Source of the DNA: an uncultured Thalassolituus sp.
GTDB taxonomy: Bacteria; Pseudomonadota; Gammaproteobacteria; Pseudomonadales; Oceanobacteraceae
NCBI RefSeq assembly: GCF_950066645.1
Contig: NZ_CATMFB010000005.1
Span: forward strand, 1 to 64,000
Length of the DNA: 64,000 nucleotides
Direction of reading: 5' to 3'
Shown here: in pieces, positions 10,683-16,513 of the stretch
How positions within the stretch are numbered: position 1 is the first letter of the stretch
Layout: every line of letters starts with the position of its first letter
The notes under the pieces: generated by a model
What the model was told of the DNA's origin: nothing
Database searches by the model: none
Seen by the model: only the letters and a program-made list of their open reading frames with translations
Position numbers and translations under genes: made by a program

Positions 10683-10750
10683 TTAACAGTTTTTGAGGCG
10701 ACTAGCCCACTGCCCTGACCGTTTGGTTGAGGCAGAGGGTTAAGCAAGTA

Positions 10751-10785
10751 GAAAACCGGCACTCGTGAGAGGCGCCGGTTTTTTT
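10751..10785 (+). terminator. Rho-independent terminator of acnB
   Basis: The arms ACCGGC (10755-10760) and GCCGGT (10774-10779) enclose a 13-base loop and are followed by a run of seven T. It lies 70 bases after the acnB stop codon. Confidence 0.85.
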
Positions 10786-10968
10786 GTGTCTAGCAGAATT
10801 TAGCTGTTCCAGCGTCCACACTGGCAAAAGGCGTCGCTTCAGGCACTTTTCATAGTGATCACGGGGAGTTATGCTCGGGAATCGAAGGGAAGCGGAGTGT
10901 AAGAACGCTCACGAATAGACAGTGAGCTGATTCGATTCTTAGAATTAGTGCTCGCCGGAGGTTAATCA

Positions 10969-12192
10969 TTGGACGAAAAGGCTGAAGAAATACCAGAAGA
11001 CATCTCAAAATTAAGGCAAAAGGTGCTGGATGCGCTGGATGGTATCGAGCCAGCAGGTAAACCTCGGTCGAATCATGAACCGACGGCACTGATGCTTTCA
11101 TCCACAACGAGAGCCAGTAAGAGGCTCCCTCCTTATTATCTTGTTTACTTCCTGCTCGTTGATTTTCTACAGTTCCCAAGGATGGGCGCATGGGAAAAAA
11201 GCGCATGGACTGTGCCATTCAGGTACAAGGACAGGCTATATGCTATTGAGCATCAAAAGATGGGACTTCGAATTTGTGCTCCAAATGAGGATCCCGATGC
11301 TCGTATCAGCGCTCGTCCGACTGAGCAACAGGAAGCAGACTCAGATTTGATAGCGAATAAAATACGCAAAGCTGTAGATTTAGCAAGACCGTATTTTGAT
11401 TGGCGAGCAAAACAAGAGGCCAAAGGTAACAGGCTTAACGTTGCAAACCATAGTAAATGGCTCTTTGATCGTTACCTATATTTTAAAGATATATTTATAG
11501 AACAACAGGCTGAAGCTGAGAACAAGAGAGCAGAGCTAAGACAAGGGAAAGATTCCTCTGATCTCCTTTCACTGCAACGGGTGTTTAATTCAGGGCTGTT
11601 GGAGCTTACCTCTCAGAGTGACTGGATAGCTCAGGCCGCCGTCGACGCATTTTTTAGCTGGACTGAGCATGCTTTTATTCATGTTGCAATTTTGAGGGGG
11701 CGAATAGAGAACGGACATCAAGTCGCTGAACTGGCTTCGGCCAATTGGAAAGAGAAATTCCGAGAAGCATTGGATTTAGATGACTCTTACTTTAAGAAAC
11801 ATTACGACAAGCTACTAATACTCAGAATTCAGATGAGAAATTTCATGGCCCATGGTGCTTTTGGTAAACGTGGAGAGGCATTTTCCTTTCACTCGGGTGC
11901 TGGGGCAGTTCCAGTGCTATTATCTGAATCTGAAACGAATTGTTATTCACTAGATGGGGCGCCCGAATTTGATGAGGCAGAGGCGATCAAGAATATTGAT
12001 TCCTTCTTGGATGATTTTTGGTCAAGTAAGTTTTCTCCAGTAAAATTACACCTATTTAGCAACGTACCGAGCATACTTACTTTCGTGGCTGATTCTACAT
12101 ATTCAAAAGCCATGCGCTCAGATAAGGCCATGTCAGAACTCATAGAATATATTGAGAGTCGGATGGACGCAGCAACAAATATGGACTGGTGA
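10969..12192 (+). CDS. HEPN-motif protein of unknown function
   Basis: A 407-residue protein that I do not recognise as a whole. Near the C-terminal third, MRNFMAHG gives Arg290-Asn291 and His295, the RNxxxH pattern typical of HEPN RNase or nucleotidyl-transfer-related domains, preceded by an amphipathic helix. The rest is soluble and helical, with no membrane segment. The start is a TTG at 10969, supported by a GGAGG seven bases upstream; no ATG is well placed. The gene opens the accessory patch after acnB, has no partner on its strand and is followed by repeats and a broken restriction gene. A role in phage defence is inference only. Confidence 0.75.
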   Translation: MDEKAEEIPEDISKLRQKVLDALDGIEPAGKPRSNHEPTALMLSSTTRASKRLPPYYLVYFLLVDFLQFPRMGAWEKSAWTVPFRYKDRLYAIEHQKMGLRICAPNEDPDARISARPTEQQEADSDLIANKIRKAVDLARPYFDWRAKQEAKGNRLNVANHSKWLFDRYLYFKDIFIEQQAEAENKRAELRQGKDSSDLLSLQRVFNSGLLELTSQSDWIAQAAVDAFFSWTEHAFIHVAILRGRIENGHQVAELASANWKEKFREALDLDDSYFKKHYDKLLILRIQMRNFMAHGAFGKRGEAFSFHSGAGAVPVLLSESETNCYSLDGAPEFDEAEAIKNIDSFLDDFWSSKFSPVKLHLFSNVPSILTFVADSTYSKAMRSDKAMSELIEYIESRMDAATNMDW

Positions 12193-12675
12193 GTATCAAT
12201 TATTCTCTATTTCAAATCACGTAGATGCTCATGTAATTAGACTAACTTACCTCTTTGTGATGCCACCCCAATGACGTTATCGGTTTGTAGCAAACCACGT
12301 CCCAGTAGAGGGCACGCCTTTTTCGACAACAAGGAGTCTAATTAGAACCTAAATGTGAACCTAAATGGACGGTCATAGTTAGAGAAAAAGCCTTGGCTTC
12401 TGCTTCAAAATTACGCCGGTCGTTCTAGTTGGTTTGGCTAGCCTCTCAATGCCTTGAAGTCGCGGTTTTTGAGACGAAAAAGCCATATTTCAGGCGAACC
12501 GGAATCTCAGATTACTCTGATGGGGGATCACGGTGGATAGGAGTCTTTAAGAAAGGCGCAGTTTACAAGCCGCAATGCCTGCCGCTCGCCTTCGTTCTCG
12601 TTGGCCGTCTCAAAACTTGGTGATTTTCGACTTCACTTCATGGGCTGCGTCGAAAAGTTACATGGACGGTCATAG
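12193..12675. other. Gene-poor accessory stretch with a 279-base segment between direct repeats
   Basis: I see no functional gene. Two exact copies of an 18-base repeat (12365-12382 and 12662-12679) bracket a 279-base segment. Within the segment an open frame of 64 codons (12429-12623) has no ribosome site and no recognisable domain. No integron attC site or insertion sequence ends were found. Confidence 0.5.
12365..12382 (+). repeat. 18-base direct repeat, copy 1
   Basis: ATGGACGGTCATAGTTAG, identical to the copy at 12662-12679 and differing in the next base on each side. The pair may be a recombination scar or target duplication, though 18 bases is longer than most transposon target duplications. 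Confidence 0.8.
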
Positions 12676-12679
12676 TTAG
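12662..12679 (+). repeat. 18-base direct repeat, copy 2
   Basis: Exact copy of the repeat at 12365-12382. It abuts the 5' edge of the broken restriction endonuclease frame, whose first readable codon is within this copy (after an in-frame TAG), so the event that left the repeat may also have removed the start of that gene. Confidence 0.8.
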
Positions 12680-13161
12680 TAACAACTTATCCAGAAAGCG
12701 ATAAAAAGCGTGGACAAGGAAATGGTGTTAAACCAATAAAGATTCCTTGTATGCATTCTTTAAAAAATGACGATTGGAAAACTGAAAGCCTACCAGATAT
12801 AGAAGCATCTGTTCTTGGTACCAGAGACCTAGACGCTCTCAAAATGACATCGGAGGGCTACATAGCATTTGAATGGGAAACCGGGAATATTTCCTCAAGT
12901 CATAGGGCACTTATTAAATTATTTCTTGCTATGCAGGAAACTGATCTACTTGGTAGTTTCCTTGTGGTTCCTAGCAATAACATGAAGCAGTATGTAACTG
13001 ATCGGATTGGGAACATTGGTGAACTTTAGCCCTATTTCCCTTTATGGAGAAATTTAACAGCGATCAAAGGCGCTTTAAGAATCGTAGTTGTAGAGCACGA
13101 TGCAACAAGTTTTGATGTGCCCAAAATTCCAAAAGGTACAGATGGACGGGCCAAGAGGTAA
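12676..13161 (+). pseudogene. Remnant of a type II restriction endonuclease
   Basis: Reading one frame from 12676 gives YPESDKKRGQGNGVKPIK, then AFEWETGNISSSHRALIKL, which I recognise as the conserved core of a BamHI/BglII-like restriction endonuclease group (Glu and the SSHR segment being catalytic or DNA-contacting). The frame is cut by a TAG at 13027-13029 but continues in register with PYFPLWRNL and RIVVVEHDATSF to a TAA at 13159. The 5' end is missing. The only intact piece has 92 codons from the ATG at 12751. No methyltransferase gene is present, consistent with decay of the system. Confidence 0.7.
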
Positions 13162-13238
13162 TAGAGCTAAAGCCAGCCGTAACCGACGGATTTTTTGTGA
13201 GCGTAGCGAAAAATAAAACGTCCGAGTTTACGGAATTG

Positions 13239-14666
13239 TTAGCTTTCGGTTTCCAGTGCTTTATTTTCTTGTTCTTCTTTCAACTCAGAATCTCTTTCAA
13301 AATCAGGTACATATTCATTTCCATAAATTTCTTTATAAGACTCCTTAAACTCATCTGTTTCACGAAAGAGTTTAAACACTGGCCAAGCTCTAAGTCCACC
13401 CTGTCCAACACTAGATTTAATTTCATCACTCTTCATTAATTTCGCAGCAGCTGAATACTCTTCTCTTAAAACATGAATTGAAAGCGCATATTTTGGATGA
13501 AAAACCTTCCACGGGTCTTCTGATAAGCCTTTTTCAAAATCTTTTTCTTGAAATTTTTGAGACACTGCTCTGTTAATTTTTGCAAAGTATAAAAATTCAG
13601 TATCTGATGAGCGAAGCTTCTCAGGGATTGCAAGATCAAATTCAGTAATAGTTTCAGCTAATGAGTACTCCCCTAAATTCATGAATTTTACCGCAAGATT
13701 GTTTAATGCTTGGTCTGCTATCTCTATCTCATCCTCAAATACTCTTCTATATGAGGCCTGTCCAATTCGAAGTCCTATCTCGAAATATACAAGAAAAGCA
13801 CTATTAAAATACTCAATATTAGAACCCAATTTATCACCCAATGTACTTTCCACTTTACAGCCAAAGCTTCTACATTTATCAATATATTGACTAGAAACAG
13901 TTCCACCAGTGTGAACAAATAGGTTTCTTCTCTCTGCAACCTCTAAAAACTCTTTTAGTTTTGAGAAGTTTTCCTTAATACCTAGCTTTAGTTTATCATC
14001 AATATATTGGATCTGTTTCTCATGAGAATCTCGCAATAAGTCTTCCACTTCTTTATAGATAATACCCTGGATAGCTTTATCTACTGATTTCAAAGCAATT
14101 AGATCTTTATAGCTAATTGTTTTGTCATCAGAAATAACCCACTCGGGGTTTTTTTCAAGAATTAGCTTTAAAATTTTTCCTAGAAACTCGTCAAATCTAG
14201 AAACCAATGTCACTACTAACTGTTTTTCGAATAGCTTCTCAGCCTTTTCAATTTTTTTCACATTAGTTGTTATATATTCAAGATCTGTGCGTTTAAATTT
14301 TAAAGTGATTTTCTTTTCTTCTTTTTCACCATCGTCAGCAGCTTCGTCTATGCTTTCGTTACCATCGTCATCAGCTTCGTCTATGCTTTCGTTACCATCG
14401 TCATCAGCTTCGTCTATGCTTTCGTTACCATCGTGGAGCGCTACATTCGTTTTTTGCAATCCACTTTTTTCTTTCCCCTTTTCTTCAGCGAATCTAAATA
14501 TCTCAGCTAGTGCATCTTTCCGCTCTTTGTCTTGAGCTTGCAAAACAGGAACGACACTAGCGTGCATTTCTCTCAAACATTCAAGATCAACAAGGTACTC
14601 ATCAATGATAGAAAGTAATTTTTTATGTTTTGGTTTTTCTTCTTTATCTGATGATAAATTTGACAT
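13239..14666 (-). CDS. HEPN-motif protein with acidic in-frame repeats
   Basis: A 475-residue protein of unknown function. Residues about 80-120 hold three copies of the 11-residue acidic repeat NESIDEADDDG, encoded by 33-base tandem repeats. ERRNLFVHTGG gives Arg247-Asn248 and His252, an RNxxxH pattern as in HEPN domains, and the C-terminal half is helical and TPR-like. The gene is distinctly AT-rich compared with its neighbours, a sign of transfer. I use the ATG at 14666; a GTG three codons upstream is also possible and neither has a strong ribosome site. It faces the restriction remnant. A defence role is inference. Confidence 0.75.
   Translation of the reverse strand: MSNLSSDKEEKPKHKKLLSIIDEYLVDLECLREMHASVVPVLQAQDKERKDALAEIFRFAEEKGKEKSGLQKTNVALHDGNESIDEADDDGNESIDEADDDGNESIDEAADDGEKEEKKITLKFKRTDLEYITTNVKKIEKAEKLFEKQLVVTLVSRFDEFLGKILKLILEKNPEWVISDDKTISYKDLIALKSVDKAIQGIIYKEVEDLLRDSHEKQIQYIDDKLKLGIKENFSKLKEFLEVAERRNLFVHTGGTVSSQYIDKCRSFGCKVESTLGDKLGSNIEYFNSAFLVYFEIGLRIGQASYRRVFEDEIEIADQALNNLAVKFMNLGEYSLAETITEFDLAIPEKLRSSDTEFLYFAKINRAVSQKFQEKDFEKGLSEDPWKVFHPKYALSIHVLREEYSAAAKLMKSDEIKSSVGQGGLRAWPVFKLFRETDEFKESYKEIYGNEYVPDFERDSELKEEQENKALETES
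14341..14433 (-). repeat. 33-base tandem repeats inside the HEPN-like gene
   Basis: Units at 14341-14373 and 14374-14406 are identical and a third begins at 14407 and matches for 27 bases. The unit length is divisible by three, so copy-number change by slippage would lengthen or shorten an acidic linker without a frameshift. Confidence 0.9.
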
Positions 14667-14926
14667 TAGTGACACTCATTTCTATAAAAAGCTAACTGCG
14701 TATTAGTGTGCATGCCTATTAATCAGGAAAGGGCTTGCACATTAACTTTTAAGCCAAAGTGTTAACTCTCTGATTTACCTTGATTTCAAGCTATCACTCA
14801 CCTGAAAAACGAGCAAGTTCAAATGTAAAGAGTGCACTATTTCACACTATCACGACACGCACATTAGCACTATGTCCTGCGATGATATGCCAACGTCCGT
14901 TTTACGGCTCAAGTATTGCTCATTTA

Positions 14927-14955
14927 TGAGCCGCAAATACGAAATCTGCGGCTCA
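14927..14955. promoter_or_regulatory. 29-base palindrome, unit 1
   Basis: TGAGCCGCAAA and TCTGCGGCTCA face each other across a 7-base centre (one mismatch between arms). A TTTACGGCTCA half-site lies at 14901-14911. It has the same length and spacing as units 2 and 3, so it is likely a binding site for a dimeric protein. Confidence 0.6.
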
Positions 14956-14956
14956 T

Positions 14957-14984
14957 CACTACTATCGGGACACTACTATCGGGA
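14957..14984 (+). repeat. 14-base tandem duplication
   Basis: CACTACTATCGGGA occurs twice in tandem and is followed by the start of a third copy (CAC). It lies two bases after palindrome unit 1. Confidence 0.8.
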
Positions 14985-15097
14985 CACCCACGTTAGCGGC
15001 CAGCTACCCAGACACCCACGCAAACACCTCCCTTGACTGACGCTCGTCTCTAAGCGGTCCACAAAACCCTCTTCCCGGCTCATCCAACAATCCACCT

Positions 15098-15126
15098 TGA
15101 GCCGCAAACCTTGCCTTTACGGCTCA
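15098..15126. promoter_or_regulatory. 29-base palindrome, unit 2
   Basis: TGAGCCGCAAA (15098-15108) and TTTACGGCTCA (15116-15126) with a 7-base centre. A partial half-site CCCGGCTCA lies at 15074-15082. Spacing is identical to units 1 and 3. Confidence 0.6.
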
Positions 15127-15141
15127 TATAACCAACAATAA

Positions 15142-15170
15142 TGAGCCGCAAATTTGAAATTTGCGGCTCA
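15142..15170. promoter_or_regulatory. 29-base palindrome, unit 3, just ahead of the Fic gene
   Basis: TGAGCCGCAAATTT and AAATTTGCGGCTCA form a perfect 14-base inverted repeat around one base. It ends 40 bases before the chosen Fic start codon, where it could act as an operator or, in RNA, as a strong hairpin. Confidence 0.65.
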
Positions 15171-15210
15171 CGACACCATATATTGCGCATCACTACCACC
15201 CGGACAGCCC

Positions 15211-16362
15211 ATGAACTACATCTGGCAACACAAATACTGGCCCCAGTTCAGCTACGACAGCAGCAAGCTGTCGGCGCTTGCCTACCAGTACGCCAAGCAA
15301 GCCTCCCAGCTGTCGGGCCGCTTGTCGCAGACGGATGACGGGGACTCTATTACCGCTCAGTTAGACCTGATGGTGGATGAGGCGATCCATACCAGCCTGA
15401 TTGAGGGTGAGAGCCTGAATCCGGCCAGCGTGCGTTCTTCATTGCAGAACTACCTGAATCTGTCACCCACTCCGATCAATGTCGCTGATGTTAAGGCAGA
15501 GGGTATGGCTGCGTTGCTTGTGGATGTGCGCAAACACTTCAATGAGCCCCTAAACAAAGAGGTGCTGTTCAACTGGCACCGTATGGTGCTCGCTGGCTTT
15601 GAAGACAATATCCTCCACAGCGACCTGACCGTCGGCCAATGGCGAGACAGCCCCGAACCCATGCAAATTGTCTCAGGGCCTGTTGGTTATGAGCGTGTGC
15701 ATTATGAGGCACCTGCTGCTCAGGATGTTGATGCCTTAATGGCTGAGTTTCTGAGTTGGTTCAATCAGCAGGAGAGCCGGCAGATACCTGGCGTCATCCG
15801 CGCTGGTATCGCTCATCTGTGGTTTGAGGTCGTTCACCCATTTGATGACGGTAATGGCCGTATCGGTCGTGCCATCATCGAATACGCACTGGCACAGGAC
15901 CTGGGCATGCCAGTCGTGCTCAGCATGTCGACGCATATCGAAAAGAACAAAAAGGAATACTATCGCCAGCTGAATACCGCCAGTTGCTGCGACGTATCTG
16001 AACTGGAAGATCCTGACGTACTTGATATCACTGAGTGGCTCAGCTGGTTTATCGAAACACTGATCGCAGCTCAACAAGAAGCCGCCGGTAAGGTAGCGAC
16101 GATATTTGAGAAAACCGCGTTCTGGCAAAAACACAAGAATACGGAGTTATCAGAACGCCAGAAGATGGTACTAAACAAGGTATTTAAAGCCGGGAAGGAA
16201 GGCTTTCCGAATGGCATTAGTGCGCAAAAGTACGCCGCGCTTGGCAAATGCTCCAAGGCCACCGCGACCCGTGACTTGAGCGATTTACTCGCCAAGAACT
16301 GCCTGCGGTCGGAAGGGGTTGGTCGCGGGCTGCGATATTTTATTGCTCTTGCATCCGCGACC
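15211..16362 (+). CDS. Fic-domain adenylyltransferase with N-terminal inhibitory motif and C-terminal winged helix
   Basis: A protein of about 384 residues that should transfer AMP (or a related group) to target hydroxyls. The N-terminus (NYIWQHKYWPQFSYD) matches the DUF4172 domain. TSLIEGE fits the inhibitory (S/T)xxxE(G/N) motif, and HPFDDGNGRIGRA with His209 is the full catalytic Fic motif. The last 65 residues look like a winged-helix DNA-binding domain (SAQKYAALGKCSKATATRDL). I use the ATG at 15211 because the open frame before it runs through palindrome unit 3. It stands alone. Autoregulation through the upstream palindromes is inference. The stop codon follows Ala-Thr at 16363-16365. 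Confidence 0.9.
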
Positions 16363-16513
16363 TGACACTCAGTGTACGGGGGCACACGCTCGAATTTCGC
16401 AAAGTTGTATACAATCCCGCCCAAACAGCGGCTGTTCACCTTGATTTAGCCCCTTTAACCATTAAAATTGCGGACAATCTACAAACATCAGCTCATCCTG
16501 CTAGGTATCCAGC

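Follow-up and report, generated by a model that had tools for sequence, protein, structure and literature searches.

A palindromic operator array ahead of a DUF4172-type fic gene, matched to the recognition helix of the encoded protein and predicted to serve its autorepression

What reads the 29-bp palindromes that stand ahead of a fic gene in an uncultured Thalassolituus sp., and to what end, is the question raised by the locus described here, which lies in the window, i.e., the whole stretch of DNA analyzed (positions 1 to 64,000 of contig NZ_CATMFB010000005.1). The gene encodes a predicted AMP-transferase of the DUF4172 type whose chain ends in a winged helix, and the answer that we favor, at a probability of roughly 0.88, is that this Fic protein represses its own gene via a promoter-operator array matched to it. 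The site format shared among relatives, the co-change of the variable core with the recognition helix, and the helical phasing of the sites together make it very probable that the protein binds its own promoter and probable that it represses it. As the layout recurs in three phyla, with the DNA letters and the residues that would read them changing together, the enzyme looks like the switch of its own gene. The features in question are as follows (window coordinates, unless residues are given):

15098-15126: distal operator palindrome, 29 bp, TGAGCCGCAAA-N7-TTTACGGCTCA, one mismatch between the arms; member of the conserved pair
15142-15170: proximal operator palindrome, 29 bp, TGAGCCGCAAATTTGAAATTTGCGGCTCA, arms without mismatch; the other member of the conserved pair, at a distance of 44 bp
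15072-15082, minus strand: additional half-site, 15 nt before the distal palindrome
14901-14955: partial copy of the array, decayed in places (minus-strand half-site 14901-14911, 15 nt, palindrome 14927-14955)
15137-15142, plus strand: candidate -10 element AATAAT (weak), abutting the proximal palindrome and lying between the two palindromes
15211-16365, plus strand: Fic gene, 384 amino acids (aa), DUF4172-Fic-winged helix
Residues 3-84: DUF4172 domain (Pfam, 91 bits, cut-off 25)
Residues 113-227: Fic domain (Pfam, 62.5 bits, cut-off 24)
Residues about 315-378: C-terminal winged helix (AlphaFold model, 8cil match)
16222-16344, plus strand: DNA-reading part of the winged helix, codons 338-378 (helix 338-345, recognition helix 349-361, wing 365-378)

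The first-pass annotation of this stretch had described three palindromes (14927-14955, 15098-15126 and 15142-15170) with further half-sites as an operator array for autoregulation, and a sequence check confirmed the coordinates of all of them. The three-membered array, however, stood only in part: all three palindromes are present, and the first one (11-N7-11 in format, one mismatch between the arms) is best read as a decayed partial copy, since it lies in a partial duplicate and relatives share the 15098/15142 pair, which makes that pair, together with the half-site at 15072, the presumable functional unit. The duplication is visible as 90% identity over 30 nt between 15141-15170 and 14926-14955 and as a direct repeat of 55 nt (78%) formed by 14901-14955 and 15116-15170, and the same 15-nt gap is found throughout, separating each half-site from the next palindrome and the second palindrome from the third.

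The palindromes are real and specific to the upstream region of fic. TGAGCCG-N15-CGGCTCA without mismatch occurs three times in the whole 3.7-Mb genome (30 contigs), each time at the fic array, with the next-best genomic match carrying one mismatch, so that the paired motif is not scattered over the genome, an outcome that the first-pass annotation had named as counting against its reading; the exact TGAGCCGCAAA has five copies, four of them at the array. The 11-mer with up to two mismatches is not enriched in the window (26 occurrences against 23.6 in shuffles), and the distinctive property is therefore the pairing and clustering of the half-sites. Five loci labelled Oleibacter, Thalassolituus or Oceanospirillaceae (L009-L013) contain a fic gene 85-94% identical to the one studied, and the proximal palindrome is kept in all five and the distal one in four (L010 has its right half-site only); in those four, the two palindromes lie 44 bp apart, near positions -113 and -69 relative to the start codon. 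The counterpart of the 15072 half-site, with its 15-nt gap, is visible in three of the five (L009, L012 and L013). None of the five has a third palindrome in the 450 bp upstream of fic, where L013 has a lone extra half-site; L013 also carries a decayed array copy (L013:664-731) 2.3 kb upstream of fic, comparable to the 14901-14955 copy of the window.

How far the arrangement extends was addressed with the DUF4172 profile PF13776, which was found in 71 of 369 genomes of Gammaproteobacteria, 69 of 299 of Pseudomonadota and 32 of 93 of the relatives of the host (these three sets overlap in part), as well as in 38 of 345 genomes of Bacteroidota and 54 of 151 of the chlamydia-like phylum to which locus L019 belongs. 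The loci sample was made up of the best-scoring DUF4172 matches and further stretches, partial and lower-scoring ones being left out, and was chosen blind to the upstream DNA; it yielded 234 Fic frames from 229 loci, of which 10 were dropped for a profile start above 12 and one for short upstream DNA (leaving 223), and merging 11 duplicates gave 212 genes. Twenty paralogue loci, two of them duplicates, were added later (230 genes). A score combining palindrome and half-site format is passed by 148 of the 212 genes, spread over Pseudomonadota, Bacteroidota and the chlamydia-like phylum, as against 5 of 1060 shuffles, and by 162 of the 230 once paralogues are included. Within 150 bp upstream, 71% of the 212 genes carry an 11-N7-11 palindrome in which 9 or more of the 11 positions pair, the controls being 2.4% for shuffled, 7.8% for downstream (204 genes) and 2.8% for coding DNA; other odd spacers from 3 to 13 give 47-75% and even ones 14-19%, and the palindrome axis therefore falls on a base. 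What is shared is the half-site format TG-N4-RA-WWA, with hardly any variation in the outer TG and in the inner A/T-rich part and with a core that varies by lineage, so that the expectation of finding the 11-base motif before other DUF4172 genes holds for the format, whereas the letters vary. Each of four Bacteroidota loci whose proteins are 39-41% identical (L014, L015, L016 and L018) carries a pair of TGAGCCGA-like palindromes, 28-29 bp long and separated by 43-45 bp, of which one is degenerate in L018; L017 has a single palindrome with a different core, and L019 showed no palindrome in the same scan.

The idea that this format is common to all Fic proteins was rejected, as genes of the Fic_N type pass in one of 27 usable cases (from 30 loci), the sole pass being an A/T-rich repeat. 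Other upstream palindromes, e.g., TTTCGATATA...TATATCGAAA and CTATACAT...ATGTATAG, were noticed before the Fic_N-type genes of L279, L285, L262 and L284, and this subfamily may have an operator format of its own.

The protein itself belongs to the DUF4172-type Fic AMP-transferases (PF13776 plus PF02661), both domains scoring above the curated cut-offs, and is the only PF13776 product of its genome. Alignment indicates an intact catalytic motif, HPFDDGNGRIGR at 209-220, of the HPFx(D/E)GN(G/K)R type, and an intact N-terminal inhibitory motif, TSLIEG, at residues 61-66. An AlphaFold model built with 11 sequences (mean predicted local distance difference test score of 85.9) places helices at 315-331, 338-345 and 349-361 and strands at 365-368 and 375-378 in the winged helix, and the nearest solved structure, by sequence as well as by fold, is 8cil (CbFic2).

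If the Fic protein is the reader, its winged helix would be expected to vary with the half-site core, and the commonest pairings of core and recognition helix among the relatives are these:

TGAGCCG: SKATATR(D/H)L
TGCGGAG: SQDTAYRDI
TGCGG(T/C)G: SxDTALRDI
TGAAGCG: SRATAFREI
TGAG(T/C)TA: SRATATRDL
TGATTAA: PIATTTRDL
TGGCGTG: NRTASRDL

Among the 155 of the 162 anchored genes (protein longer than 330 aa) that entered the pairing of residues with bases and the tree test, D350 goes with C at half-site position 3 in 63 of 63 cases and A350 with A in 78 of 82. Wing residues co-vary with positions 7-8, a wing ending in G-R going mainly with G at position 7 and one with L-K or L-R with A. In the mutual-information and partial-correlation analyses (142 of the 148 anchored genes), the partial rank correlation with the core, given the other domains, was highest for the recognition helix (0.57), followed by the winged helix (0.43) and the linker (0.29), with values of 0.04 for DUF4172 and -0.07 for the Fic domain, and the maximum over 200 permutations of the winged-helix value was 0.079. 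When the 5-nt core was predicted from whichever protein had the most similar recognition helix plus wing, among those with bodies less than 40% identical, the prediction was exact in 23% and correct per base in 58%, versus 4% and 41% when the Fic domain was used instead. For the tree test, a phylogeny was built from residues 3-300 (155 proteins, 308 branches), i.e., without the DNA-binding domain, and 307 positions were tested, the p-values treating branches (and, for the phasing below, gaps) as independent, which is true only roughly. The core changed together with residue 349 in 21 of 37 changes (7.3 expected) and with residue 350 in 8 of 8 (1.6 expected); these top two positions form the start of the recognition helix, and the third-ranked one, 367, also lies in the winged helix. 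The tree test thus points to the recognition helix, and hence to the Fic protein itself as the reader, and this co-variation, along with the conservation, is what argues that the palindromes are matched to the helix-turn-helix (HTH) of the protein whose promoter they occupy and lends support to the first-pass proposal of autoregulation by the winged-helix tail.

A different explanation of core diversity, insulation between paralogues, was tried and rejected: 12 of 16 within-genome pairs differ in core and 4 share it, and as random pairs share the core in 16%, i.e., differ more often, selection for different cores inside one genome is unsupported.

The arrangement of the sites along the DNA is regular as well. 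Gaps between neighboring divergent half-sites measure 4-5 nt (69 cases), 15-16 nt (48) or 25-27 nt (30), these classes taking up 147 of the 166 gaps no longer than 40 nt, and 10.5 was the strongest of the periods tried; the spacings therefore differ by whole helical turns, as expected for contacting dimers on one DNA face. Two or more palindromes are present in 64 of the 162 genes, the distance between full palindromes being mostly 33-34, 44 or 53-56 bp. The promoter scan found a scorable sigma-70-like promoter in 74 of the 162. In 21 of these the -10 box starts at axis+2 of the anchor palindrome, and in a further 15 (both arms) and 8 (one arm) it starts at axis+2 of another site with the gene's own core; at control offsets, 318 trials gave 8 single arms and not one full site. 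The Thalassolituus type departs from this layout, the only -10-like sequence seen being the candidate AATAAT at the proximal palindrome (its counterpart in L012 reads TATAAT).

Such genes are common on plasmids: 441 plasmid records contain a homologue that spans 80% or more of the protein, in every case with less than 60% identity to it. Nine plasmid genes were hand-picked among 30 matches listed out of 828 records; five are above the palindrome threshold and two have a weaker palindrome at the usual place. In two of three genes with an SKAT helix, one arm or both show the expected AGCC core, a gene with the helix SQDTAGRDM has CGGA in one arm, and two helices absent from the training set go with perfect palindromes whose cores are likewise absent from it.

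Taken together, these regularities would fit a mechanism in which Fic chains pair through the N-terminal DUF4172 helix, as published for CbFic2 (PMC10628234), and use one C-terminal winged helix per 11-bp half-site (TG-N4-RA-WWA), with the variable core (positions 3-6) predicted to be read by the recognition helix (349-361) and positions 7-8 by the wing. One dimer would sit on each 29-bp palindrome, and, because the gaps between sites step by one helical turn, neighboring dimers would lie on the same face of the DNA, where together they would cover the promoter and block RNA polymerase; a fall in free Fic would then lift repression, and the gene would be made again. The plain reading is thus probably single-gene autorepression by promoter occlusion, with an operator matched to the protein.

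Several results sit uneasily with such autorepression and need to be set against it. Sixty-four of the 212 genes fall below the palindrome threshold, and while some of these have half-sites or wrongly chosen starts, others may be without an operator. The sigma-70 promoter scan gave no match at threshold at the array of the window, and 30 of the 74 promoters scored elsewhere lie on no site. In the tree test, the fourth and fifth positions (295 and 198) are outside the winged helix, and the raw mutual-information ranking includes columns such as 229 and 149, also outside it, which, along with the value for the linker, means that ancestry was not fully removed. Among the plasmid genes, two of the nine (H2 and H4) have no palindrome, no site being seen in H2 in spite of its SKAT helix, and the three SRATATRDL genes fit the training cores poorly: one lacks a site, one has AGCC and AGGC, and one AGCG and AGCT, both minor cores in the training set.

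Other explanations fare worse against the same evidence. That another transcription factor binds the palindromes, with fic merely in its regulon, is very improbable: palindromic operators are usually read by dedicated regulators, and binding by Fic is here a prediction, but the core changes with Fic's own recognition helix across three phyla, and the exact motif occurs nowhere else in the genome of the window. A wider regulon is likewise unsupported among the relatives, for a scan of the DNA around each fic gene gave extra own-core palindromes in 6 of the 162 loci (one being the 14927 palindrome), not above the 9 hits of the wrong-spacing control. Own-core palindromes away from the fic promoter were seen in L098 (-962 from the start) and L014 (+1129 from the start) and are possible second targets in these two genomes. 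The odds are slimmer still that the palindromes act in RNA, as leader hairpins of an attenuator, a terminator or a translation block. The proximal one does form a perfect inverted repeat of 14 bp around a single-base loop, at which a terminator-like hairpin was scored on the minus strand, but there are no Rfam matches at E<=1 in 14400-16500, roughly half of the relatives with a scorable promoter have a site that overlaps its -35/-10 region, and shared cores within one gene, gaps that follow the helical repeat of DNA and co-change with a DNA-binding helix also speak against it; if the -10 element of the window is at 15137, the proximal palindrome is transcribed, and an added RNA role is therefore possible in this species. 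As for remnants of a mobile or repetitive element (repetitive extragenic palindromes, miniature inverted-repeat transposable elements) with no role at the fic promoter, which we hold to be scarcely credible, the 14901-14955 and L013:664-731 copies do lie in rearranged, variable DNA upstream of fic, yet three exact copies per genome, all in the array, make no repeat family, and a like architecture occupies the same place before the distant Bacteroidota genes.

Unlikely, yet deserving of more thought than these, is the view that the array chiefly sets enzyme activity, with operator DNA as an allosteric ligand holding a harmless deAMPylating dimer and repression as a side effect. DNA binding by CbFic2 induces dimerization, stimulates deAMPylation and abrogates auto-AMPylation (PMC10628234), and both the frequency of multi-palindrome arrays and the lack of a conserved partner gene in the flank clustering would suit such a role; against it, the overlap with promoters is what plain repression would give, a cell contains few copies of the operator, and the activity data come from the homologue CbFic2. 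A more speculative extension, for which we see only a small chance, would make the array a DNA-borne antitoxin, i.e., a one-gene addiction module with DNA as the antidote. Operator-bound Fic would be held as an AMP-removing dimer, autorepression would keep the protein about as scarce as its sites, and upon loss of the gene together with its array (e.g., with a plasmid), leftover AMP-adding monomer would harm the cell. If true, this would account for the lack of a partner gene, for arrays with several sites and for the abundance of homologues on plasmids; its basis is what was published for a homologue exposed to random DNA, together with the operators described above, and the toxicity is putative.

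Clustering of the frames around fic gave no conserved partner gene. Among flanking frames of at least 80 aa, the largest cluster outside the acnA neighborhood comprises six loci, and when ATG frames of 35-130 aa at distances up to about 500 bp were clustered, no cluster exceeded 6 of 229 loci, although non-homologous or smaller partners would escape these searches. A cluster of seven loci that was considered as a partner or antitoxin turned out to be acnA in Thalassolituus-type genomes, and a type II toxin-antitoxin module was rejected, as flank clustering revealed no conserved adjacent antitoxin gene. What we take to be a HipA-like protein stands near fic in six loci (L035, L042, L044, L057, L179 and L252). 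Type II toxin-antitoxin operons such as phd-doc also encode a toxin-type fold and are autoregulated via palindromic operators, with the antitoxin partner sharing in DNA binding, whereas here the enzyme, the inhibitor helix and the presumed repressor would be united in one polypeptide, the operators are helically phased, and the flanks showed no conserved partner gene; such a self-contained arrangement is part of the interest of the locus.

Autorepression by a Fic protein is already known. CccR (YPK_0951) of Yersinia pseudotuberculosis binds a palindrome in its own promoter as a dimer through its C-terminal HTH and represses its own gene, as demonstrated by electrophoretic mobility shift assay, footprint and reporter (PMC9755527), so that the first-pass remark on knowing of no such array for Fic proteins needs correcting as regards autorepression via promoter palindromes. 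The likeness extends to the Fic enzyme, the C-terminal HTH and the palindromic sequence in the own promoter, binding and repression being predicted for the protein of the window. The CccR footprint, given as AGATAATCAT-N26-ATGATAATCT, is one widely spaced pair of 10-bp half-sites (10-N26-10), unlike the compact 11-N7-11 palindromes, phased arrays and TG-N4-RA-WWA half-sites found here, where the CccR-type 26-bp spacing does not occur; being a secreted effector of the type VI secretion system is a feature of CccR (PMC9755527). CbFic2 (PDB 8CIL), the best match in sequence and fold, has the same DUF4172-Fic-winged HTH domains and like inhibitory and catalytic motifs; its DNA-induced dimerization and shift to deAMPylation were seen with random DNA, its authors call for study of a specific binding sequence, and no operator for it is described in the parts of PMC10628234 consulted. 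SoFic (SO_4266, PDB 3EQX) is likewise a Fic protein with a C-terminal winged HTH, named a Fic domain containing transcriptional regulator in the PDB, and is distant (16-19% identity in the fold search, and 51 bits for the protein of the window versus a SoFic family cut-off of 550); according to PMC10628234, which counts its N-terminus as DUF4172, it has not been shown to bind DNA. A 2026 review mentions both the binding of CccR to its own promoter and the response of CbFic2 to DNA (PMC12894286).

In the literature searched (journal articles open without subscription, partly as the best-listed matches, preprints aside), we found no description of a conserved operator array or a recognition code for the DUF4172 Fic family, and the phased array and the code are, to that extent, undescribed. 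The array thus offers a concrete predicted site for a family spread over at least three phyla, sequence specificity having been left open for CbFic2 (PMC10628234), as well as what looks like a natural recognition code relating helix residues 349, 350 and 353 and the wing to half-site positions 3-8. Joining the array with the CbFic2 data suggests that the operator may also set the direction of the enzyme, and the array makes the question of whether operator DNA switches that direction testable.

The surroundings of the array are less constant than the array itself. Similarity of the close relatives to the window ends leftward at about 15063-15073 in L009, L011, L012 and L013 and at 15117 in L010, and runs on rightward into acnA; the acnB-fic stretch (10683-15073) varies among them, the fic-acnA side being conserved, and is likely to be an insertion hotspot. 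Within it, a 92-aa frame (12751-13029, plus strand) matches positions 62-152 of the 157 of a BamHI endonuclease profile and is apparently a fragment, and a 478-aa frame (13239-14675, minus strand), oriented divergently to the decayed array copy, contains about three DDGNESIDEA repeats and has no Pfam or NCBIfam match. In L013, similar stretches at 601-790 and 2717-2790, both reading GATTCAAGGGGTCAG... and then fic half-sites, flank about 2 kb of cargo and may be the scar of a recombination or an insertion. Short direct repeats around CTATCGGGACACCCACG, at 14847-15020 and 15185-15206 of the window, resemble the sequence directly before the fic start codon and are perhaps further remnants of the fic 5' region.
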